Shown piece by piece: positions 3,567 through 18,173 of a stretch of 64,000 nucleotides of DNA. The position numbers were made by a program, and so were the translations under genes. The notes beneath the pieces were generated by a model. That model saw nothing but the letters and a program-made list of their open reading frames with translations, was not told where the DNA came from and searched no databases. This stretch comes from Candidatus Bilophila faecipullorum. GTDB lineage: Bacteria > Desulfobacterota > Desulfovibrionia > Desulfovibrionales > Desulfovibrionaceae. Position 1 is the stretch's first letter; every line of letters starts with the position of its first letter. The stretch is taken from assembly GCA_944326695.1 (NCBI GenBank), contig CALVEZ010000003.1, forward strand, positions 1-64,000, given 5' to 3'.

Positions 3567-3732
3567 ATTTCGTACTCCGGCCTCAAGGCGATAACGCAAG
3601 CAAAAAGTTTGTATTCCAGATACTTGCGCGGGCATGACGGAAAGCATTCCCTGTTTATTCTAAATAGGGATACTTCCTGTTAAGTCTCCATTTCCTTGCT
3701 CTCGTTGGGGAATCATTCCGCCCCCGCAAAAG

Positions 3733-3748
3733 TGGAACGGCATTTGCT
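3733..3748 (+). promoter_or_regulatory. Sigma54 (-24/-12) promoter of the BMC shell operon
   Basis: TGGAACGGCATTTGCT has GG and GC separated by exactly ten bases, the sigma54 hallmark. It lies 47 bases before the first gene of the operon. The promoter of islA at 12859 shares the same spacing and nearly the same spacer. Confidence 0.8.
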
Positions 3749-3795
3749 CTAATGCTCACAAACCTTTTTGTGCACCACGCCAGGAGAGTCAACTG

Positions 3796-4728
3796 ATGAA
3801 AATAATCGACTTCCGCTTCCGTCCGAACACGCCGGAAATCATCAACGGCATCAAGAACAGCTCCATGTTCAAAGCCACCTGCGAGGCCATCGGGTTCGAC
3901 AAGCGCGTGCCGCAGCCCCTGCCCGAAATCGTGGCCGATCTTGATCGCCGCGGCGTCGAACTGTGCGTCGTTTCCGGCCGCGACTGCGAAACCACCTACG
4001 GTTTCCCCGCCAACAACAACAGTATCCTTGAATTCTGCCGCGCCTATCCCAACAAATTTCTCGGTTTCTGGGGCATCGACCCGCACAAGGGCATGGACGC
4101 CGTCCGCGAAGTCGAACACGTGATCAAAGACCTCGGCATGCGTGGTATCGCCACCGACCCCTATCTTGCCCACTGCCCGCCGAGCGACGCCCGCTACTAT
4201 CCCATCTATGCCAAGTGCGTCGAGCTCGGCGTGCCGGTCTTCGTGACCACCGCCCCGCCCGCCCAGGTGCCCCGCGCCATCATGGACTACATTGATCCGC
4301 GTCAGATCGACGTCGTCGCCCGCGACTTCCCCGAACTGATCCTCATCATGAGCCACGGTGGTTATCCCTTCGTCAACGAAGCGATTTTTGCCTGCATGCG
4401 CAACGCCAACGTCTACATGGACCTCTCCGAGTACGAACTCGCTCCCATGGCCGACGTCTACGTCGACGCCCTGAACAAGATGATCGGCGACAAGGTTATC
4501 TTCGCCTCCGCCCATCCGTTCATCGAGCAGGCCGACGCCATCGAAATCTACAAGAAGCTCAACATCAGCGAAGAAGTCCGCGAAAAGGTCATGTACAAGA
4601 CCGCCGCGAAGATTCTCGGCATCGACAAGGGCGTTTCCTTCAACACCACGAAGCCCATGGCCCCCAACGGCTTCAACAACGCCAAGTTCCCGCTGCCGTT
4701 CCAGCCCTTCGCCCCCATGGGACGCTAA
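3796..4728 (+). CDS. Amidohydrolase-fold protein lacking metal ligands, first gene of the BMC operon
   Basis: This 310-residue protein resembles the ACMSD-like amidohydrolase-2 family, a TIM barrel normally holding zinc. The expected ligands are replaced. The N-terminal HxH is Arg7-Phe-Arg9 in IDFRFRP. The histidine after strand 5 is Thr151 in PVFVTT. The strand-8 aspartate of GSDYPF is Ala239 in ASAHPF. Only His187 of SHGG, the usual general base, remains. The C-terminus carries a Pro/Phe-rich tail of about 30 residues. It starts at ATG 3796 behind AGGAG and is the first gene after the sigma54 promoter. The fold is fairly secure. Activity is unknown, and a structural or regulatory role in the compartment is possible. 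Confidence 0.75.
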   Translation: MKIIDFRFRPNTPEIINGIKNSSMFKATCEAIGFDKRVPQPLPEIVADLDRRGVELCVVSGRDCETTYGFPANNNSILEFCRAYPNKFLGFWGIDPHKGMDAVREVEHVIKDLGMRGIATDPYLAHCPPSDARYYPIYAKCVELGVPVFVTTAPPAQVPRAIMDYIDPRQIDVVARDFPELILIMSHGGYPFVNEAIFACMRNANVYMDLSEYELAPMADVYVDALNKMIGDKVIFASAHPFIEQADAIEIYKKLNISEEVREKVMYKTAAKILGIDKGVSFNTTKPMAPNGFNNAKFPLPFQPFAPMGR

Positions 4729-4817
4729 GGTTTCGCGGCGAATCGACATTCCGGGCAGCGCCGCGGCGTGGAAACACGTCGCGGCCTGCCGAACTGTTTG
4801 GGTAACGAGAGGATAGC

Positions 4818-6155
4818 ATGGATAAACAGGCGTTCATAGCGGCGGTGAAGGCGGCCGGCATTGTTGGTGAAGGTGGAGCTGGTTTTCCGGCGCACGTCAA
4901 GTACGCCGCCGACGCCGACACGGTCATCGCCAACGGCTGCGAATGCGAACCCCTTTTGCACACCGACCAGCATCACATGCTGCACCACGCCAACGAGATC
5001 GTCCGGGCGTTCAGCGAGCTGATGCAGGCCACGGGTGCCAAGCGCGGCGTCATCGCACTGAAGAAAAAGTACAAGGAAGCCACGAAGATTCTGACGGAAG
5101 CCATCGGCAACCGCCCCATCGAACTGGCCCTTCTCCCCAACTTCTACCCCGCCGGGGACGAACAGACCCTCGTCCGCGAAGTGACCGGCCGCTCGGTTCC
5201 GCCGCTCGGCCTGCCCCTCATGGTGGGCGCCGTGGTCGCCAACGTCGGCACACTCGTGTCCGTGGCCCACGCCCTTGACGGCAAGCCCGTCACGCACAAA
5301 TTTCTGACCGTCACCGGCGACGTGAGAAAGCCCGGCGTCGTGCGCGTGCCCATCGGCACCCCGCTCTCCGCCTGTCTCGAAGCCGCGGGCGGCCCCACCG
5401 TGAGCGATCCCGTCTTCGTTCTCGGCGGCCCCATGATGGGCCGGATGGTGGACAGCGCCGAAGCCTTTGCCAAGGAAGTCGTCACCAAGACCTCCGGCGG
5501 CCTCATCATCCTCCCCCGCGGGCATTACCTACACCGCAACGCGACCACGCCGCTGAACTTCATGCGCCGTCGCGCGGCTGCGGCCTGCATCCAGTGCCGG
5601 ACCTGCTCCGAACTGTGCCCCCGCCACCTCATCGGCCATCCCTTTGAAACGCACCGCGTCATGCGCGCCTTCGGCAGCAACGCCGAACTCACCGCCGAAA
5701 ACGGCAAGCTCGCGCTTCTGTGCTGCGACTGCGGCGTCTGCGAACACGTGGCCTGTCCTATGGGCCTGTCCCCCCGCCGCATCAATCAGGCCGTCAAAGC
5801 CGAACTGCGCGCCGCCGGGATCAAGTACGACGGCAACCGCGAGGTCGACGAGTCCTACACCCAGTGGCGCGAATTCCGCCGCGTGCCCGTGCCGCGTCTG
5901 GTCAACAAGATCGGCATCAGCCGCTACATGGACCTGCCCACCAATGATCTGGGCGATCTTTCCCCGGCTGAAGTGCGCATCCCCCTGCGCCAGCACATCG
6001 GCGCCCCGGCGCAGGCCGTGGTCAAGCCCGGCGACCGCGTCAAGTGCGGCGACGTCATCGGGGAAATCCCCGAACAGGCCCTCGGTGCCCGCATCCATGC
6101 CAGCATGGACGGCGTGGTCAAGAGCGTCGACGGCGCCGTCGTCATCGGCAAGTAG
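4818..6155 (+). CDS. PduS-like RnfC-family flavo-iron-sulfur protein
   Basis: This 445-residue protein belongs to the RnfC/PduS family, which oxidises NADH through FMN and iron-sulfur clusters. The N-terminal GIVGEGGAGFPAHVKY and CECEPLL motifs mark the nucleotide/flavin domain. A SLBB-like segment follows, then two 4Fe-4S motifs, CIQCRTCSELC and CCDCGVCEHVAC, around residues 257-320, and a C-terminal biotinyl-lipoyl-like domain. In Pdu compartments the homologue partners the iron-sulfur shell protein PduT, and a PduT-like gene follows directly here. It would regenerate NAD for the aldehyde dehydrogenase. It starts at ATG 4818 behind GAGAGG. Confidence 0.88.
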   Translation: MDKQAFIAAVKAAGIVGEGGAGFPAHVKYAADADTVIANGCECEPLLHTDQHHMLHHANEIVRAFSELMQATGAKRGVIALKKKYKEATKILTEAIGNRPIELALLPNFYPAGDEQTLVREVTGRSVPPLGLPLMVGAVVANVGTLVSVAHALDGKPVTHKFLTVTGDVRKPGVVRVPIGTPLSACLEAAGGPTVSDPVFVLGGPMMGRMVDSAEAFAKEVVTKTSGGLIILPRGHYLHRNATTPLNFMRRRAAAACIQCRTCSELCPRHLIGHPFETHRVMRAFGSNAELTAENGKLALLCCDCGVCEHVACPMGLSPRRINQAVKAELRAAGIKYDGNREVDESYTQWREFRRVPVPRLVNKIGISRYMDLPTNDLGDLSPAEVRIPLRQHIGAPAQAVVKPGDRVKCGDVIGEIPEQALGARIHASMDGVVKSVDGAVVIGK

Positions 6156-6210: not shown

Positions 6211-6768
6211 GTGTCTGATTCATACACAGCCGTAGGAATGGTGGAATTCAACAGCATTGCCGCCGGCATCGACGCGGCTGACCAGATGGTGAAAACCGCT
6301 CAGGTCGATCCGCTGTTCTTCAAGACGATCTGCCCCGGCAAGTTCGTGGCCGCCGTAACCGGCGACGTGGCTGCCGTATCCGCTTCCGTCAACGCCGGAC
6401 GCGAAACCCACGCTGACGCGCTGGTGGACTGGTTCATCATTCCCAACATCCACCGCGATGTCATCGGTGCGTTGGCTGGCGCCACCACCATCAGCGAACG
6501 CGGTGCGCTCGGCATCATCGAAACCTTCTCCGCCGCCTCCATCGTGGTGGCGTCCGATGCCGCGGTCAAGGCTGCCGACGTGCAGCTTCTCGACGTGCGC
6601 GTGGCCCTCGGGCTCGGCGGCAAGGGCTATGCCCTCATGACCGGCGACGTGGCCGCCGTCAACGCCGCCGTGGAAGCCGGGTCCGCCTCCGCCGCCGAAA
6701 GCGGGCTCCTCGTGAGCAAGGTCGTCATCCCGAGCCCCGCCGAAAGCGTCTTCGAACAGATTGCCTAG
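6211..6768 (+). CDS. Tandem-domain BMC-T shell protein, PduT-like
   Basis: This 185-residue protein has two BMC domains (about residues 5-90 and 95-180) and forms a pseudohexameric shell tile. The loop KTICPGKF in domain 1 puts a cysteine where PduT binds a 4Fe-4S cluster in its central pore. It follows the PduS-like gene, which supports an electron-conducting pair. The start is GTG at 6211 behind a strong AAAGGAG. No later ATG would keep the first strand of the domain. Whether a cluster is bound is inferred from the cysteine and the context. Confidence 0.9.
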   Translation: MSDSYTAVGMVEFNSIAAGIDAADQMVKTAQVDPLFFKTICPGKFVAAVTGDVAAVSASVNAGRETHADALVDWFIIPNIHRDVIGALAGATTISERGALGIIETFSAASIVVASDAAVKAADVQLLDVRVALGLGGKGYALMTGDVAAVNAAVEAGSASAAESGLLVSKVVIPSPAESVFEQIA

Positions 6769-6786
6769 CGCAGTCAGGAGTACCCT

Positions 6787-7200
6787 ATGAGCCTTGAATA
6801 TAAACCGTCTCTCGGCTTCGTCGAAACCGCCGGCCTCGTCATCGCCATTCAGGTGGCCGATGCCATGGCCAAGGCCGCCGAAGTGGAAATCATCTCCGCC
6901 CACAAGGTCGACGGGCTGCGTGTCTGCGTGATCTGCAAGGGCGACGTGGCCGCGTGCCAGGCCGCCGTGGAGACCGGAGCCATGCTCGCCCAGAGCCTCA
7001 ACGGGCTGAACGGCTACAACATCATCCCGAGCCCGGCCGAAGAGCCCGATTCTCTCATGGACATGCTCGAGGACATCAAGCGTAAGAAAGCCGCCCGCAA
7101 GGCCGCCAAGAAGGCCCGTATGGCCGCTGCCAGCGCGCCCGCCGCGCCTGCCGCTCCCGCCGCCGAGGATGGCGCCCCGAAGGGCCGGACCAAGAAGTAG
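6787..7200 (+). CDS. BMC-H shell protein with basic Ala/Lys-rich tail
   Basis: Residues 1-92 form a single BMC domain (GFVETAGLVIAIQVADAM, then KGDVAACQAAVETG) that would assemble as a hexameric tile. A tail of about 45 residues follows. It opens with a stretch very rich in Lys and Arg (residues about 98-113), continues with Ala-Pro repeats and ends in KGRTKK. Ordinary BMC-H proteins stop near 90-100 residues. The tail could anchor cargo, bind nucleic acid or link shells; this is not known. The gene lies 18 bases after the BMC-T gene, behind CAGGAG. Confidence 0.9.
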   Translation: MSLEYKPSLGFVETAGLVIAIQVADAMAKAAEVEIISAHKVDGLRVCVICKGDVAACQAAVETGAMLAQSLNGLNGYNIIPSPAEEPDSLMDMLEDIKRKKAARKAAKKARMAAASAPAAPAAPAAEDGAPKGRTKK

Positions 7201-8201: not shown

Positions 8202-8972
8202 ATGATCTTTCTTACCGAAGAAGACGTCAGACAGCGTTGCGAGCTGGGGCAGGGAGGCGAATTCTGCCTTCAGGCCGGCGAGCGCCTGACTCCGGCGGCT
8301 ACCGAGCTGTTGCGCAGCCGCAACTGCCGGGTGATCCTGCCCGGTCAGTGCACTGTGGAAGCGCCCGCCGCGGACAAAGCGCCTGAAAAACCCGAGCCCG
8401 CTCCGGCGGTTGAAGCCGCTCCCGCCGCGCCCGCGGCCCCGGCGGACTCCTCCTTCCCGGACGGGACCTATCTTGACGCCGACACCGTGGTCTCCAAATC
8501 CCACCCGCGCATCTTCCTGCGCGGCAAGCTGGATACGCTCATTTCCAGCACGGTGCTGGTACAGACCGGCTTCGACGGCAACAACAAGCTGCCCGCCGTC
8601 CTCAAAAACGGACTGGCCGACGTCAACGTGTGGCTGTGGCAGATTCTGCAGGCCGAAGTCTCCGGTGAAGCGCTCCCCGAGCAGGCCCTCTGCGGCATGA
8701 ATGCCGAAGCGCTCCGCCTCGTCTCCCACGACCCCATGACCTATCTGGGTCAGGGGCACCTCGTCCCCGACGTGGCGCTCGGCCCGAACGTCGCGCTCCT
8801 GAACTGGCTGCGCGCGCAGGTCCGCGAGGTCGAAGTGGCCTACGTGCAGGTCGGTATGGATCGGGAAGACCTTCTGACTTCCCTCAACCGCCTGAGCAGC
8901 GCCATCTATGTCCTCATGCTTCTGACCGTCGTAGCCGAATCCGGCCGCGATATCACCAAGGTTGGTCTGTAA
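8202..8972 (+). CDS. EutT-like protein (cobalamin adenosyltransferase fold) without the metal motif
   Basis: This 256-residue protein aligns with EutT along its length. It has an N-terminal FLTEEDVRQRCELGQGGE module, a linker, then the helical domain with SKSHPRIFLRGKLDTLISS, LVSHDPMTYLGQGHLVPD and LNRLSSAIYVLML. EutT normally binds metal through a His and a Cys-Cys-x2-Cys motif between the two domains. Here that stretch is an Ala/Pro-rich linker with no cysteine or histidine. The neighbouring lyase is a glycyl-radical enzyme that needs no B12. Either it keeps a nucleotide-binding or scaffold function, or it adenosylates cobalamin by another route. It starts at ATG 8202 behind GAAGGAAA. Confidence 0.75.
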   Translation: MIFLTEEDVRQRCELGQGGEFCLQAGERLTPAATELLRSRNCRVILPGQCTVEAPAADKAPEKPEPAPAVEAAPAAPAAPADSSFPDGTYLDADTVVSKSHPRIFLRGKLDTLISSTVLVQTGFDGNNKLPAVLKNGLADVNVWLWQILQAEVSGEALPEQALCGMNAEALRLVSHDPMTYLGQGHLVPDVALGPNVALLNWLRAQVREVEVAYVQVGMDREDLLTSLNRLSSAIYVLMLLTVVAESGRDITKVGL

Positions 8973-10053: not shown

Positions 10054-10332
10054 ATGGACGCTCTTGGCATGATCGAAACCCGTGGTCTGGTTGGTCTCAT
10101 CGAAGCTGCTGATGCTATGGTCAAGGCTGCCCGCGTGCAGCTCGTCTCCTACGAACAGATCGGCGGCGGCTATGTGACCGCGCTGGTCCGCGGCGATGTG
10201 GCCGCCTGCAAAGCCGCTACCGACGCCGGCGCCGCCGCTGTGCAGCGCGTAGGCGGCGACCTCGTGGCCGTCCATGTCATTCCTCGTCCTCATCAGGACC
10301 TGGAAGCCGTGTTCCCGCTCAGCCGCAAGTAA
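10054..10332 (+). CDS. BMC-H hexameric shell protein, PduA/PduJ type
   Basis: This 92-residue protein is one BMC domain: [26 protein letters not shown] at the start and [15 protein letters not shown] in the second half. It is the canonical small hexamer that makes up most facets, and its pore loop would pass isethionate and products. It has a very strong ribosome binding site (AAAGGAG, seven bases before ATG), and a hairpin precedes it. Both suggest it is made in excess of its operon neighbours. Several short GC-rich hairpins follow before the pentamer gene. Confidence 0.95.
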
Positions 10333-10464
10333 GCCCGACCGCCCGGCCTTGAGCCGGGCCCGGTACTGCTCGTCAGCCTCGCCGGGGCCTATGCGCCCCG
10401 GCACGGCTTTGGCTCCTTACGGAATTGCTCCTGAGGGGCTTCCCCTTCAGGAACGGAGAAAGGC

Positions 10465-10758
10465 ATGGAACTCGCAAAAGTCGTTGGTCAGGTCGTTTCC
10501 ACGGTACGATGCCCCGAATTGCCGTACAACTCGCTCCTCCTCGTTGAACTGCTCAACGGGAAGGGGGAACCCGCCGGTCGTTGCCAGGTGGCCGCGGACC
10601 CCATCGGGGCGGGAGAGGGTGAATGGGTCATCGTTTCCCGAGGCAGTTCCGCGCGGTTCGCCATCGACAAGGACGCGCCTCTGGACTTGGTCATTGTCGG
10701 CATCGTCGACCATGTGAATGCCGGTAAGGAAGCCCTGTATCGCAAGAATCAGGGGTAA
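10465..10758 (+). CDS. BMC-P vertex protein, EutN/CcmL type
   Basis: This 97-residue protein of the EutN/PduN/CcmL family forms pentamers that cap the vertices of the shell. It opens with MELAKVVGQVVSTVRCPEL, the usual first strands, and ends with LVIVGIVDHVN, the last strand and turn of the fold. It is the only pentamer gene in the locus, so it should be essential for closed shells. It starts at ATG 10465 behind GGAGAAAGG. The aldehyde dehydrogenase gene follows after about 190 bases containing a possible 24-codon reading frame. Confidence 0.95.
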   Translation: MELAKVVGQVVSTVRCPELPYNSLLLVELLNGKGEPAGRCQVAADPIGAGEGEWVIVSRGSSARFAIDKDAPLDLVIVGIVDHVNAGKEALYRKNQG

Positions 10759-10951: not shown

Positions 10952-12406
10952 ATGGACGTGCGCCAGCAAGACGTGGAACGCATTGTCGTTGAAGTTCTCA
11001 AAAAGATGATGTCGGATCAGCCTTCCGCGGCTGCGACGACGATGGTTTCCGCCTGCGGCTGCGACAGCGGCGACTTCGGCCTCTTCGATCAGCTCGAAGA
11101 CGCCGTGAAGGCCGCCGAAGCTGCCCAGAAGAAGATCGCCACCGTCGCCGTGCGCGACAAGATCATCGCCGTCATCCGCAAGGCCGGTCTTGAAAACGCC
11201 AAGGCCTTCTCCGAAATGGCCCACAACGAAACGGGCATGGGCCGCGTAAGCGACAAGATCGCCAAGAACATCCTTGTTTGCGAACGGACCCCCGGCACCG
11301 AATGCCTCTCCCCCATGGCCATTTCCGGCGACATGGGCCTGACCCTCATTGAAAACGCTCCTTGGGGCGTGATCGCTTCCGTGACGCCGTCCACCAACCC
11401 GACCGCCACGGTCATCAACAACGCCATCAGCATGATCGCCGGCGGCAACGCCGTGGTCTTCGCTCCCCACCCCAATGCGAAGCGTTCTTCCCAGACGGCC
11501 ATTCAGGTCCTGAACAAGGCCATCATCGAAGCGACCGGCATCGCGAACCTGCTCGTCGCCGTGAAGGAACCCACCATCGAAGTGGCGCAGCAGCTCTTCT
11601 CGCATCCGCGCATCAAGCTGCTCGTGGTCACGGGCGGCGAAGGCGTGGTCGCGCAGGCCCGTAAGGTCGCCACCATGCGCCTCATCGCCGCCGGCGCCGG
11701 CAACCCGCCGGTCGTCGTCGACGAAACCGCCAATATCGCCCGCGCCGCCCGCAGCATCTACGACGGCGCCTCCTTCGACAACAACATCATCTGCGCCGAC
11801 GAAAAGGAAATCATCGCGGTCGACTCCATCGCCGATCAGCTCAAGGCCGAAATGAAGGCCATCGGCGCGGTGGAAATCAGCCTCGAACAGGCCGACGCCG
11901 TGGCCCGCGTGGTCCTGCGCGACTACCCGCAGGTCGCCGGCGGCAAGAAGCCTTCTCCGAATCCCAAGTGGGTGGGCCGTGACGCCGCCGTCATCGCCCG
12001 CGCCGCTGGCATCGACGTGCCGGATAGCTGCCGCCTGCTCATCATCGACGTGAAGCGCGACATCGACCACGTCTTCGCCCGCACCGAACAGCTCATGCCC
12101 GTCGTGCCGCTGCTGCGCGCCAAGGACGTGGATGAAGCCATCGAATGGGCCCTGATCCTCGAACGCGGCCTGTCCCACACCGCGGGCATCCATTCCCGCA
12201 ACATTGACAACATGGACAAGATGGCCCGCGCCATGAACACCAGCCTCTTCGTCAAGAACGGCCCGCATCTCGCCGCCCTCGGCGCTGGCGGCGAAGGCTG
12301 GACCACCATGACCATCTCCACCCCCACCGGTGAAGGCGTCACCTGCGCCCGCTCGTTCGTGCGCCTGCGCCGCTGCTGCGTGGTCGACAACTTCCGCATC
12401 GTCTGA
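10952..12406 (+). CDS. CoA-acylating aldehyde dehydrogenase, EutE/PduP type
   Basis: This 484-residue enzyme oxidises acetaldehyde with NAD and CoA to acetyl-CoA. The catalytic cysteine is Cys281 in FDNNIICADEKE, and VTPSTNPTATVINN and LLVVTGGEGVV form the nucleotide site. Residues 1-20 (DVRQQDVERIVVEVLKKMM) form an amphipathic helix followed by a loose linker, the form of encapsulation peptide seen on PduP, so it should be lumenal. It would detoxify the acetaldehyde released by the lyase. It is the last gene of the shell operon, followed by a hairpin at 12423-12446. It starts at ATG 10952 behind AGGAGAT. Confidence 0.93.
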   Translation: MDVRQQDVERIVVEVLKKMMSDQPSAAATTMVSACGCDSGDFGLFDQLEDAVKAAEAAQKKIATVAVRDKIIAVIRKAGLENAKAFSEMAHNETGMGRVSDKIAKNILVCERTPGTECLSPMAISGDMGLTLIENAPWGVIASVTPSTNPTATVINNAISMIAGGNAVVFAPHPNAKRSSQTAIQVLNKAIIEATGIANLLVAVKEPTIEVAQQLFSHPRIKLLVVTGGEGVVAQARKVATMRLIAAGAGNPPVVVDETANIARAARSIYDGASFDNNIICADEKEIIAVDSIADQLKAEMKAIGAVEISLEQADAVARVVLRDYPQVAGGKKPSPNPKWVGRDAAVIARAAGIDVPDSCRLLIIDVKRDIDHVFARTEQLMPVVPLLRAKDVDEAIEWALILERGLSHTAGIHSRNIDNMDKMARAMNTSLFVKNGPHLAALGAGGEGWTTMTISTPTGEGVTCARSFVRLRRCCVVDNFRIV

Positions 12407-12858: not shown

Positions 12859-12874
12859 TGGCACGGCACTTGCT
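12859..12874 (+). promoter_or_regulatory. Sigma54 (-24/-12) promoter of islA
   Basis: TGGCACGGCACTTGCT matches the sigma54 consensus TGGCAC-N5-TTGCW at every position, with GG-N10-GC spacing. It lies 109 bases before the islA start codon. With three upstream sites and an activator gene downstream, regulated strong expression is expected. Confidence 0.9.
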
Positions 12875-12982: not shown

Positions 12983-15475
12983 ATGGCTCAGCTTACCGAA
13001 GTCAAATCTCCTCATGAACAGCGTCTTGAAGACAAGATCGCCGGCAAAGAAGACATCTATCGCGAATCTCACAAGCGCGTGTTCAAGCTGCTCGAACGTT
13101 TCGACGGCCAGAAACCCGCCATCGACGTCGAACGCGCCCTCTACTTCACCCAGTCCATGGCCGAAACCGTTGGCCAGCCGCTGGTTCTACGCTGGGCCAA
13201 GGCTCTCATGAACGTCGCCAAGAACATCACCGTCATGGTGCAGGACGACCAGCTCCTGCTCGGCCGCTGCGGTGGTCATGACGGCCGTTACGGCATCCTC
13301 TATCCCGAACTCGACGGCGACTTCCTTGACATCGCCGTGCGCGACCTGCCCACCCGTCCTCAGTCTCCGGCCGCCATCAGCCCCGAAGACGCCAAGATCG
13401 TGGTCGAACAGATCGCTCCCTTCTGGAAGGGCCGCACCTACCATGAAGCTCTGAACAAGGCTCTTCCGCCCGAAGTCCACAAGCTGACCTACGACGATCC
13501 CGACGGCCTCATCTCCCGCTTCATCGTCAACGAAACCTCTTCGTTCCGTTCCTCCATCCAGTGGGTGCACGACTACGAAGTCGTCCTGAAACGCGGCTTT
13601 AACGGCCTGAAGCAGGAAATGGAAGAAAAGCTGGCCGCTCTTGATCCCGCCTCCCCGGTGGATCAGGTGGACAAGCGTCCCTTCATCGAAGCCACCATCA
13701 TGGTGTGCGACGCCATCGTGCTGTGGGCGAAGCGCCACGCCGAAGCCGCCCGCAAGGCCGCCGAAGCCTGCGCCGATCCGGTCCGCAAGGCCGAACTCAT
13801 CCGCATGGCCGAAAACGCCGAGCACGTGCCCGCCAACCCGGCCCGCGACTTCTACGAAGCCGTGCAGTCCCAGTACTTCACCCAGATGTTCTCGCGTCTG
13901 GAACAGAAGACCGGTACCACCATTTCCAACGGCCGCATGGACCAGTACTTCTATCCCTTCTACAAGAAGGACATGGAAGCCGGCACCCTGACCGATGAAA
14001 AGACCCTCGAATACCTCGAATGCATGTGGGTCGGCATGGCCGAGTTCATCGACATGTACATCTCCCCCGCCGGCGGCGCCTTCAACGAAGGTTACGCTCA
14101 CTGGGAAGCCGTCACCATTGGCGGCCAGACCCCGGACGGCCGCGATGCGACCAACGATCTGACCTACCTCTTCCTGAAATCCAAGCGCGAATTCCCGCTG
14201 CACTACCCCGACCTCGCCGCTCGTATCCACAGCCGTTCGCCCGAACGTTACCTGTGGGACGTGGCCGAAACCATCAAGTTCGGCTCCGGCTTCCCCAAGC
14301 TGTGCAACGACGAAGAATGCATCCCGCTGTACGTCTCCAAGGGCGCGACCTTTGAAGAAGCCCTTGACTACGCCGTGTCCGGCTGCATCGAAATCCGTAT
14401 GCCCAACCGCGACACCTACACCTCCGGTGGCGCCTACACCAACTTCGCCACTGCCGTTGAAATGGCTCTCTATGACGGCAAGATGAAGAAGTACGGCGAC
14501 GTGCAGCTCGGCATCAAGACCGGCGACGCCCGCAAGTTCAAGACCTGGGAAGAATTCTGGAACGCCTACCTGCAGCAGCACATGCTCCTGCTCCGCACGA
14601 CGTTCGTCCAGCAGTACATCGTCATCCAGACCCGCGCCAAGCACTTCGCTCAGCCCATGGGCTCCGTGCTGCACGCTCTGTGCCGCAAGCACTGCATCGA
14701 CCTGCATCAGCCCCAGATTCCCGAAGGCCTGAACTTCGGCTACTTTGAATTCATGGGCCTCGGCACCGTCATCGACTCCCTGGCCGCCATCAAGAAGCTC
14801 GTGTTTGAAGACAAGAAGCTCACCATGGATCAGCTCGTCGACGCTCTCGAAGCCAACTTCGAAGGCTACGAAGACATCCAGCAGCTCCTCCGCACGGCTC
14901 CCTGCTACGGCAACGACGACGAATACGCCGACGAAATCGGTCGCGAACTCGACCGCATCGCCGTGGGCTTCGCCGCCAAGTACGGCAAGGAAATGGGCAT
15001 CAACAACGACTGCCGTTACGTGCCCTTCACCTCTCACGTGCCTTTCGGCAAGGTTGTTTCCGCGACCCCGAACGGCCGCGTAGCCTGGTTCCCGCTGTCC
15101 GACGGTTCTTCTCCGTCTCACGGCGCCGACCACAACGGCCCCACCGCCATCCTGCTCTCCAACCACAACACGAAGAACTACGGTATGCGCGCCCGCGCCG
15201 CCCGTCTGATCAACGTGAAGTTCACCCCCAAGTGCGTTGAAGGCGATGCCGGTACCGAAAAGCTGGTGCAGTTCATCCGTACCTGGTGCGACCTGAAGCT
15301 GTGGCACATCCAGTTCAACGTCATCAACGCCGATACCCTGAAGAAGGCCCAGAAGGACCCGCAGAAGTATCGTAACCTCATCGTCCGCATCGCCGGGTAC
15401 AGCGCCTACTTCGTCGACCTGACCCCCGATCTGCAGAACGACCTCATCGCCCGTACCGGCCACGACCAGATGTAA
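12983..15475 (+). CDS. islA: Isethionate sulfite-lyase (glycyl radical enzyme)
   Basis: This 830-residue glycyl radical enzyme cleaves isethionate (2-hydroxyethanesulfonate) to acetaldehyde and sulfite. The PFL-like domain carries Cys468 and Glu470 in [10 protein letters not shown], and the glycyl loop RIAGYSAYF holds Gly805. Arg189, Gln193 (RSSIQ) and Arg678 fall at the sulfonate-binding positions described for IslA/IseG. Choline lyase would show GCVEP and diol dehydratases differ at these sites. The start is ATG at 12983 (GGAGAAACATC). An upstream GTG at 12920 would add 21 unrelated residues. It has its own sigma54 promoter and a terminator before its activator. Sulfite released here would feed dissimilatory sulfite reduction. 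Confidence 0.94.
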
Positions 15476-15582: not shown

Positions 15583-16521
15583 ATGGGTTCCTTTGAAGAT
15601 AGAAAGGCGACCGGAACCGTCTTCAACATTCAGAAATATTCCGTGCATGACGGTCCCGGCATCCGTACCATCGTCTTCCTGAAGGGCTGCCCCCTTTCGT
15701 GCAAATGGTGCAGCAACCCCGAATCACAGGCTTCCCACCCGCAGGTCGCCTACAACAAGGGCCGCTGCATCGGTTGCCACCGCTGCATGAAAGCCTGTCA
15801 GCAGGATGCCATCAGCATCAATGAAGACGGTACCCTCAAGCTGGACCGCAGCAAGTGCGACGTCTGCAAGACGCTCGACTGCGCGCACGCCTGTCCCGCC
15901 CAGGGCATGATCATCTACGGCGAGGACAAGACCGTCGATCAAATCCTCAAGGAAGTGGAAAAGGACGCCATGTTCTACGCCCGTTCCGGCGGGGGCATGA
16001 CCCTGTCCGGCGGCGAACCGCTCATGCACGCCAGCATCGCCCTCCCGCTCCTGCGCGAGGCGCGCCATCGCCGCATCAAGACGGCCATCGAAACCTGCGG
16101 CTGCATTCCGTGGGAAACCCTCAAGGAAGCGGCCCCCTTCCTCAACTATGTCCTCTTTGACGTCAAGCAGATGGACAGCGCCAAGCACCGCGAAGGCACA
16201 GGCGTGGGCAATGAGCTGATCCTCAGCAACCTCAAGAAGCTGATCACCGAATTTCCCAATCTGCACGTGCAGGTCCGTACCCCCATCATCCCCGGCTTCA
16301 ACGACAACGACGAATTCGCCGTGGCCCTCGGGGAATTCCTGAAGGGCCATGAGAACGTCGGTTATGAAGCCCTGCCCTACCATCGTCTCGGCACCCAGAA
16401 GTACGACTTCCTGAGCCGCGACTACGAGATGGGCGACGTCAGCCTTCCCGACGGCGTAGCCCAGCGCATCCAGCGCATCGTGGACGAAACCCGGGGCGCT
16501 CCGGCTCCGGCCGCGAAGTAG
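15583..16521 (+). CDS. islB: Isethionate sulfite-lyase activating enzyme (radical SAM)
   Basis: This 312-residue radical SAM protein installs the glycyl radical on IslA. The SAM cluster cysteines are Cys36, Cys40 and Cys43 in GCPLSCKWCSNPE. An inserted ferredoxin domain follows with CIGCHRCMKAC and CDVCKTLDCAHAC, typical of activases for enzymes other than pyruvate formate-lyase. The SGGEP motif (MTLSGGEPLMH) binds SAM. It lies 107 bases after islA with the terminator between. It starts at ATG 15583 behind ACGAGG. A terminator at 16547 closes the unit. Confidence 0.93.
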   Translation: MGSFEDRKATGTVFNIQKYSVHDGPGIRTIVFLKGCPLSCKWCSNPESQASHPQVAYNKGRCIGCHRCMKACQQDAISINEDGTLKLDRSKCDVCKTLDCAHACPAQGMIIYGEDKTVDQILKEVEKDAMFYARSGGGMTLSGGEPLMHASIALPLLREARHRRIKTAIETCGCIPWETLKEAAPFLNYVLFDVKQMDSAKHREGTGVGNELILSNLKKLITEFPNLHVQVRTPIIPGFNDNDEFAVALGEFLKGHENVGYEALPYHRLGTQKYDFLSRDYEMGDVSLPDGVAQRIQRIVDETRGAPAPAAK

Positions 16522-16772: not shown

Positions 16773-18173
16773 ATGGAAGACCCCATCCGCTCTCTCGCCC
16801 TGCACTTTGAAAGCATCCTCGACATCCTGTCCGACGGCGTGTTCATCAGCGACGTGGAGGGCACGACGCTTTTCGTCAACAAGATGTATGAGACGCTCAC
16901 CGGTCTCCGGCAGGATGAGATTCAGGGCCAAAACATCCGCACCCTCGTACAGCAGGGCATCTTCGACCGCGTGGTCAATCCGCAGATCGTGGAAACCGGA
17001 AAACCGGCTACCCACGTCCAGCAGCTTGCCAACGGCAAACGCCTTGTGCTCACCGGCTACCCCGTCTTTGACGAGAAGGGGCAGCTTTGCCTTGTTGTGA
17101 CCTTCGCGCGCGACATCACCGTCCTCACACAGTTGCAGGACGAAATGACGGCGCAGAAAAAACTCATTGAGCAGTTCCATGACCGCCTCGCTTTCATGGC
17201 CCGCGAGCAGACCCGCGAGCTGGTGCCGGTCTTCGCCAGCCGGGAAATGAAGGACGTGATGGGCCTTGTGGAGCGTTTCGCCAGTTCGGACGCCACGGTC
17301 CTCATCCTCGGGGAAACGGGCGTGGGCAAGGACGTAGTGGCGCGCATGACCCACGAACTCAGCCCGCGCAAAGAAAAGATGTTCCTCAAGGTGGACTGCG
17401 GCGGGATTTCCGAGAGCCTGACCGAATCCGAGCTTTTCGGCTACATGCCCGGCGCGTTCACGGGCGCGGGCAACAAGGGCAAGAGCGGCTATTTCGAAAT
17501 GGCCGACGGCGGCACGGTCTTTCTCGACGAAGTGGGCGAACTGAGCCTCGCCATGCAGACCCGCCTGCTGCGCGTGCTCCAGGACGGGGAAATCATGCGC
17601 GTTGGCTCCTCCAAGCCGCGCAAGGTTGACGTGCGCATCATCGCGGCCACCAACCGCAATCTGGCCGAGCGCGTGGAAAAGGGGCTTTTCCGGCGCGATC
17701 TCTACTACCGCCTCAATGTGGCCGTGGTGAACATCCCGCCCCTGCGCGAGCGGCCTGACGACATTGAGCCCCTGATCACGCATTTTCTCAGCGTCTTTAC
17801 CACCAAGTACCGCAAGCACATGAACCTTGCGCCCGGCCTTATGGAGGCCCTGCGGCAGTATTCATGGCCGGGCAACGTGCGCGAGCTGCAAAACCTGATG
17901 CACAGCATCGTCATCACCAAGGATCACGGCCCGCTCACGGTCAAGGACCTCCCCCGCCACATGACGGGCATTGAAAACGAGGAGCTTTTCTTCCCCGACG
18001 ACGGCATCAACTACGACCGACCCCTCAAGGACATCATGGCCGACATCGAACGCGGCATCCTGCGCAAGGCCCTCAAGGTGCACGGCTCGGTCCAGAAAGT
18101 GGCCGAGGTCTTCAAGGTCAACCGGAGTACCATTTTCAGAAAGCTGCATTCGGAGAAGGATGGGAATGAGTGA
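16773..18173 (+). CDS. Sigma54-dependent transcriptional activator (PAS-AAA+-Fis)
   Basis: This 466-residue enhancer-binding protein has an N-terminal PAS sensor (residues about 5-120), a AAA+ domain and a C-terminal Fis-type helix-turn-helix (VQKVAEVFKVNRSTIFRKL). The AAA+ domain has Walker A GETGVGKD at 180-187 and the GAFTGA sigma54-contact loop at 227-232. It is the only such regulator in the window and lies right after islB. It is therefore the best candidate to bind the five 16-bp sites and fire the promoters at 3733 and 12859. What the PAS domain senses cannot be told. The ATG at 16773 has no clear Shine-Dalgarno sequence. Confidence 0.9.
   Translation: MEDPIRSLALHFESILDILSDGVFISDVEGTTLFVNKMYETLTGLRQDEIQGQNIRTLVQQGIFDRVVNPQIVETGKPATHVQQLANGKRLVLTGYPVFDEKGQLCLVVTFARDITVLTQLQDEMTAQKKLIEQFHDRLAFMAREQTRELVPVFASREMKDVMGLVERFASSDATVLILGETGVGKDVVARMTHELSPRKEKMFLKVDCGGISESLTESELFGYMPGAFTGAGNKGKSGYFEMADGGTVFLDEVGELSLAMQTRLLRVLQDGEIMRVGSSKPRKVDVRIIAATNRNLAERVEKGLFRRDLYYRLNVAVVNIPPLRERPDDIEPLITHFLSVFTTKYRKHMNLAPGLMEALRQYSWPGNVRELQNLMHSIVITKDHGPLTVKDLPRHMTGIENEELFFPDDGINYDRPLKDIMADIERGILRKALKVHGSVQKVAEVFKVNRSTIFRKLHSEKDGNE

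Follow-up and report, generated by a model that had tools for sequence, protein, structure and literature searches.

Respiration of taurine and isethionate by Bilophila produces hydrogen sulfide in the gut. Among the genes of a Bilophila isethionate microcompartment locus is one whose product has the fold of a metalloenzyme and none of the usual metal ligands, and we asked what such a protein might be doing there. The window is the whole stretch of DNA that was analysed, 64,000 nucleotides of contig CALVEZ010000003.1 from Candidatus Bilophila faecipullorum. The gene, cargo-like among the microcompartment genes and lacking a known role, is now placed in a family that tracks sulfite release across phyla; its product is a candidate for a missing step of sulfonate catabolism, and would be a case of a metalloenzyme fold whose metal site became an arginine anion pocket.

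The isethionate locus and its amidohydrolase-fold gene

The window holds a Bilophila isethionate (islAB) locus, its gene content matching the published islAB microcompartment cluster (PMC8667426). The islA gene (12983..15475, + strand; 1911.9 bits to 7kq3, B. wadsworthia IslA) encodes isethionate sulfite-lyase, a glycyl radical enzyme (GRE) and the conserved partner of the gene under study; the R189, Q193, C468, E470, R678 and G805 of its product identify the locus as one for isethionate sulfite-lyase. Profile matches, all on the + strand, located the GRE activase gene islB (15583..16521), an RnfC/PduS-like protein (4818..6155), BMC shell proteins at 6211..7200 (PduT-like, 6211-6768, and BMC-H, 6787-7200) and at 10054..10758 (BMC-H, 10054-10332, and EutN-type BMC-P, 10465-10758), an acetylating acetaldehyde dehydrogenase (10952..12406) and a sigma-54-dependent regulator of the locus (16773..18173). 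A homologue of EutT-like cobalamin adenosyltransferase (8202-8972) lies inside this B12-independent GRE microcompartment locus; the related loci L010, L011, L012 and L014, four in all, have it as well. The NF048011 family is by name a (2S)-3-sulfopropanediol dehydratase; the sulfite-lyases IslA and HpsG (window 12983-15475 and L007 11588-14062) score about 1500 bits against its cut-off of 1000, so that automatic annotation would misname both.

The gene in question, ORF 3796-4728 on the + strand, begins with ATG and encodes 310 amino acids. It belongs to Amidohydro_2 (PF04909; 122.8 bits versus a gathering cut-off of 26.4, E 2.9e-35), and zero NCBIfam families matched it. Its AlphaFold2 model (mean pLDDT 90) has a complete barrel, and a fold search returned amidohydrolase structures at Z 20-31, with 3irs at the top (Z 31.2); model and fold matches together establish the (beta/alpha)8 barrel of Amidohydro_2, and the ORF is intact, just as the first-pass annotation had described it. 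An antisense ORF of 364 codons (3655-4749, - strand) overlaps the gene and seems to be a by-product of the composition of GC-rich coding DNA.

The B. wadsworthia counterpart of the gene, at the corresponding locus, is HMPREF0179_00649. Table 1 of PMC8667426 enters it as a hypothetical/predicted amidohydrolase, and the main text of that paper does not analyse its site, its tail or its relatives and offers no compartment-fraction data for it. In no paper that we found is the family defined below, or its tie to sulfite release, described, and searches on BB4693/3irs, on amidohydrolases with SsuD, on sulfosuccinate with fumarase and on hydroxymethanesulfonate enzymes gave nothing relevant. What is already known is the gene and one crystal structure from the family, both without function; the protein is a variant of a known fold, possibly with a new activity. 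The metallo bile salt hydrolases of Bilophila (PF07969; PMC13081902) come from the same organism and the same superfamily and are tied to taurine use, but they are secreted, metal-dependent and of another Pfam family, and a link of the gene to them was ruled out on the last ground.

The gene had been placed, in the earlier reading, first under a sigma-54 promoter. A sigma-54-type (-24/-12) match, TGGAACGGCATTTGCT, does lie at 3733..3748 (+), 63 nt 5' of the start codon; however, islA has a match of its own upstream (TGGCACGGCACTTGCT, 12859..12874, +), and most loci have none before the gene. A promoter of this type conserved at the gene was ruled out, an exact match standing directly before it in 5/90 loci; an exact match lies 80 nt upstream of the paralogue in the hps cluster of the same genome.

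Replacement of the metal site across a single clade

Decarboxylases and hydratases of the ACMSD/Amidohydro_2 type bind Zn or Mn via an HxH motif, a His and an Asp. The window protein is like ACMSD, gamma-resorcylate decarboxylase, LigW and LigJ in its fold (Z 20-24) and in its PF04909 profile, whereas alignment with relatives that have the full metal set (the L113-L119 group) sets its D5-R7-R9, T151, H187 and A239 against their D5-H7-H9, H151, H187 and D239. All four metal ligands (HxH, the strand-5 His and the strand-8 Asp) are missing; the strand-6 general-base His187 and Asp5 of the DxHxH motif are retained. The substitutions that the first-pass annotation had read without an alignment are thereby borne out. 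On the + strand, the Arg7-Phe8-Arg9 codons that replace the strand-1 HxH (hereafter RxR) lie at 3814..3822, the Thr151 codon at the strand-5 His position at 4246..4248, the His187 codon at 4354..4356 and the Ala239 codon in place of the strand-8 Asp at 4510..4512. Sequence comparison added a third conserved arginine of the family, Arg62 at the end of strand 2 (3979..3981).

RxR is common to 91 proteins of a GRE-linked clade, with pairwise identity down to 40%, and D5, R7, R9, R62, D95, D121, S186, H187, R202, N205, E212, E214 and A239 are among the residues invariant in all 91. Arg62 is also present in BB4693 and in SsuD- and SorAB-linked members, and His187 is conserved in the RxR members read. 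Position 239 is A/S/G in RxR members and D in the HxH relatives; at position 151 the close clade has T/S/A and most of the more distant RxR members have M, so Thr151 itself is no signature. The conservation check proposed at the outset came out positive for RxR, which all homologues read from this kind of locus retain. The locus scan took some of its seeds from M[KN][IT]IDFRF, a motif selecting for RxR, so the conservation of RxR in that scan is partly selected. A whole-protein HMM search of 395 genomes (the phylum sample), in which the motif was not required, gave 21 copies above 430 bits in 14 genomes; RxR was found in 14/14 such loci read, and the next matches fell below 230 bits and were without it.

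By DSSP positions on the AlphaFold2 model, most of the invariant residues come directly after barrel strands 1, 2, 3, 4, 6, 7 and 8, at the catalytic (C-terminal) end; the invariant polar residues there argue for an active site that was re-tooled, not decayed. The retention of RxR in homologues from this type of locus agrees with the earlier suggestion of a change of role, and a local mutation or pseudogene was ruled out by the presence of RxR in homologues and in BB4693.

When the tree was rooted on the HxH relatives, the RxR proteins formed a single clade (support 98) that includes BB4693 of Bordetella bronchiseptica (PDB 3irs/3k4w), with subclades that are GRE-linked (100), SsuD/SorAB (100) and BB4693/SDH (93). 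Across the whole clade D5, R7, R9, R62, D/E121 and H187 are kept and the strand-8 Asp is absent, except that one Hydrogenophaga copy, on a long branch, has G aligned to R62; the window protein has D5, R7, R9, R62 and H187, lacks the strand-8 Asp and falls in this clade. Plasmid-borne RxR homologues, which are about 30-60% identical among themselves and to the query used, have R7, R9 and H187 in common and R62 in nearly all, and Asp239 is absent from them. The E212 and T/S/A151 of the GRE-linked clade are not retained in the SsuD-linked clade, so that substrates may differ between the clades.

Among solved structures the closest is that of BB4693, a TIM-barrel protein of uncharacterised function, with Z 31.2 and an rmsd of 2.6 over 263 aligned residues. 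It shares the R7/R9/R62/H187/A239 pattern; it differs in having 29% identity, M at 151 and no E212, and it groups in another subclade, with SDH-fumarase-linked proteins of Cupriavidus and M. nodulans. The PDC lactonases of the LigI type (COG3618) are amidohydrolase-fold enzymes that work without a metal and bind an anion through arginines; they retain the HxH and Asp residues. COG3618 structures are among the fold matches of the window protein (Z about 20-22), but LigI is of another family and its substrate is a carboxylate. A separate Desulfobacterota branch of Amidohydro_2 without HxH and the strand-8 Asp (L084, L087, L105, L106 and L111, with CxI/CxM/CxT/CxA) retains the strand-5 His and His187.

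Linkage to sulfite-releasing enzymes and the C-terminal tail

For RxR loci flanked by 9 kb or more on each side, which span Desulfobacterota and some other phyla, an IslA/HpsG-type GRE was present in 28/28 and shell genes in 5/28; near the non-RxR relatives such a GRE was found in 0/22. On the shell count, the gene as a microcompartment marker was ruled out as the primary link. In the phylum sample the GRE was present in 14/14 genomes carrying an RxR gene (Fisher p 6e-24, relatedness ignored), GRE copy numbers per genome being lower bounds since at most two candidates were scored in each. Gene order and strand around the RxR gene vary widely among loci, so the linkage reflects more than synteny by descent.

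The partner GREs are IslA-like (R189, Q193, T312, R678, F682) or HpsG-like (A312, I682), with Q193 in all, and those adjoining an RxR gene retain the sulfonate-binding R189/Q193/R678 of IslA. The Q193A change abolishes IslA activity (PMC8473560). Four genomes with divergent GREs (47-50% identical to IslA, Ala at 193) are without the RxR gene, and the gene as a marker of any NF048011 GRE was ruled out on this account; this divergent group (L124-L127, genomes G001, G077, G174 and G041) has no high-scoring RxR gene anywhere in those genomes. Exceptions to the linkage are the sulfite-lyase GREs at L122, L123 and L136, which have no RxR gene nearby, and those at L132 and L134, with an RxR gene only elsewhere in the genome.

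The genome of the window itself carries two further RxR paralogues. One is flanked by hpsH and a TRAP transporter in an HpsG DHPS sulfite-lyase cluster (GRE 1777 bits to 6lon), the hpsGH cluster, for which PMC8397734 reports induction on DHPS. The other (L008, 7773-8606, contig C57) is an orphan whose neighbour is a UDP-glucose epimerase-like gene, on a 20 kb contig on which no GRE was found.

More distant members sit with other sulfite-releasing genes. The RxR gene adjoins or is near ssuD, along with sfnG and msuE, in Azospirillum and in two records of Methylocystis, and in Aliarcobacter it is with an ssu operon. The cluster orders, with AMH for the RxR amidohydrolase, are MFS-AMH-SorA-SorB-YeiH in M. 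bullatum, SDH-fumarase-AMH-dicarboxylate symporter-YeiH-SorAB-TauE in M. nodulans and SDH-fumarase-AMH-TauE on two Cupriavidus plasmids. Both SorA and SsuD were assigned above curated cut-offs; SorA (an equivalog) directly adjoins the gene in M. bullatum and in M. nodulans lies close by. Since the annotation of these two clusters shows, from importer to sulfite oxidase, no other enzyme known to desulfonate, the RxR protein is the best candidate for sulfite release in both. Clear sulfonate neighbours are absent from around the RxR copies of Hydrogenophaga, Caballeronia and Desulfolutivibrio and copy 2 of M. nodulans.

The window protein ends in a Pro-rich extension (residues 275-310; 4618..4725, +) closing with KFPLPFQPFAPMGR, a candidate encapsulation signal. 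A tail of 30-60 aa beyond the barrel was found in 14/14 RxR copies at loci with shell genes, and most other copies stop within 6 aa. The 7 tail-bearing copies without visible shell genes are all in genomes with BMC genes, as are 5 of 13 tail-less copies. Many tails resemble encapsulation peptides (e.g., MQDLVGEIVREVMARLGR), and the AlphaFold2 model of the L064 protein has a flexible linker followed by a helix (287-306), matching the described architecture of these peptides (PMC6325248); a linker-joined terminal extension in shell loci, as expected of BMC cargo, is thus found. Hydrophobic moments of the tails approximate that of the N-terminal peptide of the window aldehyde dehydrogenase (MDVRQQDVERIVVEVLKKM), which on internal comparison resembles an encapsulation-peptide helix, and few of them strongly exceed shuffled sequences. 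The Bilophila/Desulfovibrio version has a Pro-rich end of the PLPFQPFxPxR type that is predicted to be disordered (pLDDT <50), and an amphipathic helix was absent from the window's own tail, with zero Pro-free helix windows.

From these tail sequences we infer that the RxR protein is likely encapsulated, with an unusual signal in the Bilophila protein. The first-pass annotation had argued from the promoter that the gene matters to the compartment; this stands in modified form, because the shell-locus copies have a C-terminal tail of encapsulation type. A second type of shell locus with an IslA-like GRE (L044, L047, L068, L069, L071 and L074) also has a tailed RxR gene, and its aldehyde dehydrogenase is only about 29-35% identical.

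A candidate reaction and its alternatives

Sulfite and aldehydes form stable alpha-hydroxysulfonates at neutral pH, and the well-annotated RxR contexts have in common a pathway yielding sulfite, usually plus a carbonyl. The reading to which we incline, tentatively and at a little short of an even chance, is that the RxR protein is a metal-free enzyme of sulfite-releasing sulfonate catabolism, acting most likely on carbonyl-sulfite (alpha-hydroxysulfonate) adducts, and cargo where a shell exists. R7, R9, R62 and the conserved acids would replace the zinc site with an anion pocket beside the base His187. Substrates could be the adducts of sulfite with acetaldehyde (from IslA), hydroxyacetone (HpsG) or aldehydes (SsuD). 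In this scheme the sulfonate group would be bound by the arginines and the hydroxyl proton abstracted by either His187 or an acid, and sulfite would leave with no need for a metal, the freed sulfite then passing to respiration or oxidation and the carbonyl to the next enzyme. A sulfonate held by two arginines has a precedent in IslA (PMC8473560) and in the isethionate-binding protein IseP (PMC11668362). Where there is a shell, the C-terminal tail would bring the protein inside, alongside IslA and the aldehyde dehydrogenase. Of the several roles first offered for the protein, the one now favoured is chemistry without a metal, for example the handling of aldehydes.

Extended to the family, and held slightly more loosely still, the proposal is that RxR amidohydrolases may be an unrecognised metal-free family acting on sulfite-carbonyl adducts (1-hydroxyethanesulfonate, hydroxymethanesulfonate) in anaerobic sulfonate-respiring gut bacteria and in aerobic sulfonate users, and that in M. 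bullatum and M. nodulans the step may be that of C-S bond breaking itself. Against the adduct reading is the fact that the adduct reaction proceeds without an enzyme, so that a catalyst may be little needed.

The main rival, which we consider possible but clearly less probable, is an enzyme that is likewise metal-free and belongs to these pathways but catalyses another reaction, for instance repair of sulfite-damaged metabolites (NAD-sulfite, flavin adducts) or a hydrolase, lyase or isomerase reaction of a different small sulfonate. The gene contexts would be the same, the conserved anion pocket suits any small sulfonate or sulfite-derived anion, and the closest fold relatives are decarboxylases and hydratases; however, the isethionate, DHPS, alkanesulfonate and SDH-fumarase clusters have no other sulfonate in common, and the products they share are sulfite and a carbonyl.

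A catalytically dead protein serving as scaffold, shell adaptor or compartment regulator, among the roles first proposed, is unlikely. Loss of the four metal ligands and the presence of the tail in shell loci would fit it, but the barrel's catalytic end carries polar residues that do not vary from phylum to phylum, the conserved residues clustering at the C-terminal ends of the strands; most linked loci have no shell (GRE in 28/28, shell in 5/28) and there the tail-less form occurs, and the aerobic RxR relatives with SsuD or SorAB have no shell genes in their clusters. The protein is probably a working step in sulfonate breakdown that its tail carries into the microcompartment, rather than a dead scaffold.

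It is improbable, more so than the dead scaffold, that the protein is a metalloenzyme still, its metal moved to D5, D95, D121, H187, E212 or E214: several conserved acids are indeed close to His187, but two arginines take the normal metal positions, and E212 is absent from BB4693 and from the SsuD-linked branch. Least credible of all is an accessory factor for activation, protection or repair of the GRE itself. The gene's strict tie to a single GRE group in Desulfobacterota would suit it; against it are relatives with SsuD or SorAB in GRE-free clusters, and NF048011 GREs that lack Q193 and do without the RxR gene.

For the SDH-fumarase clusters we infer that, if adduct cleavage is the reaction, the carbonyl product would possibly be oxaloacetate, sulfofumarate hydrated at its sulfonated carbon being an alpha-hydroxysulfonate. 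As an observation on these clusters, L137 (M. nodulans pMNOD01) and L140 (C. necator pBB1) each group an SDH-like enzyme, a two-part fumarase, an RxR amidohydrolase and a sulfite exporter, with SorAB also in the L137 cluster, and the arrangement looks like an aerobic pathway for a sulfodicarboxylate, perhaps sulfosuccinate.
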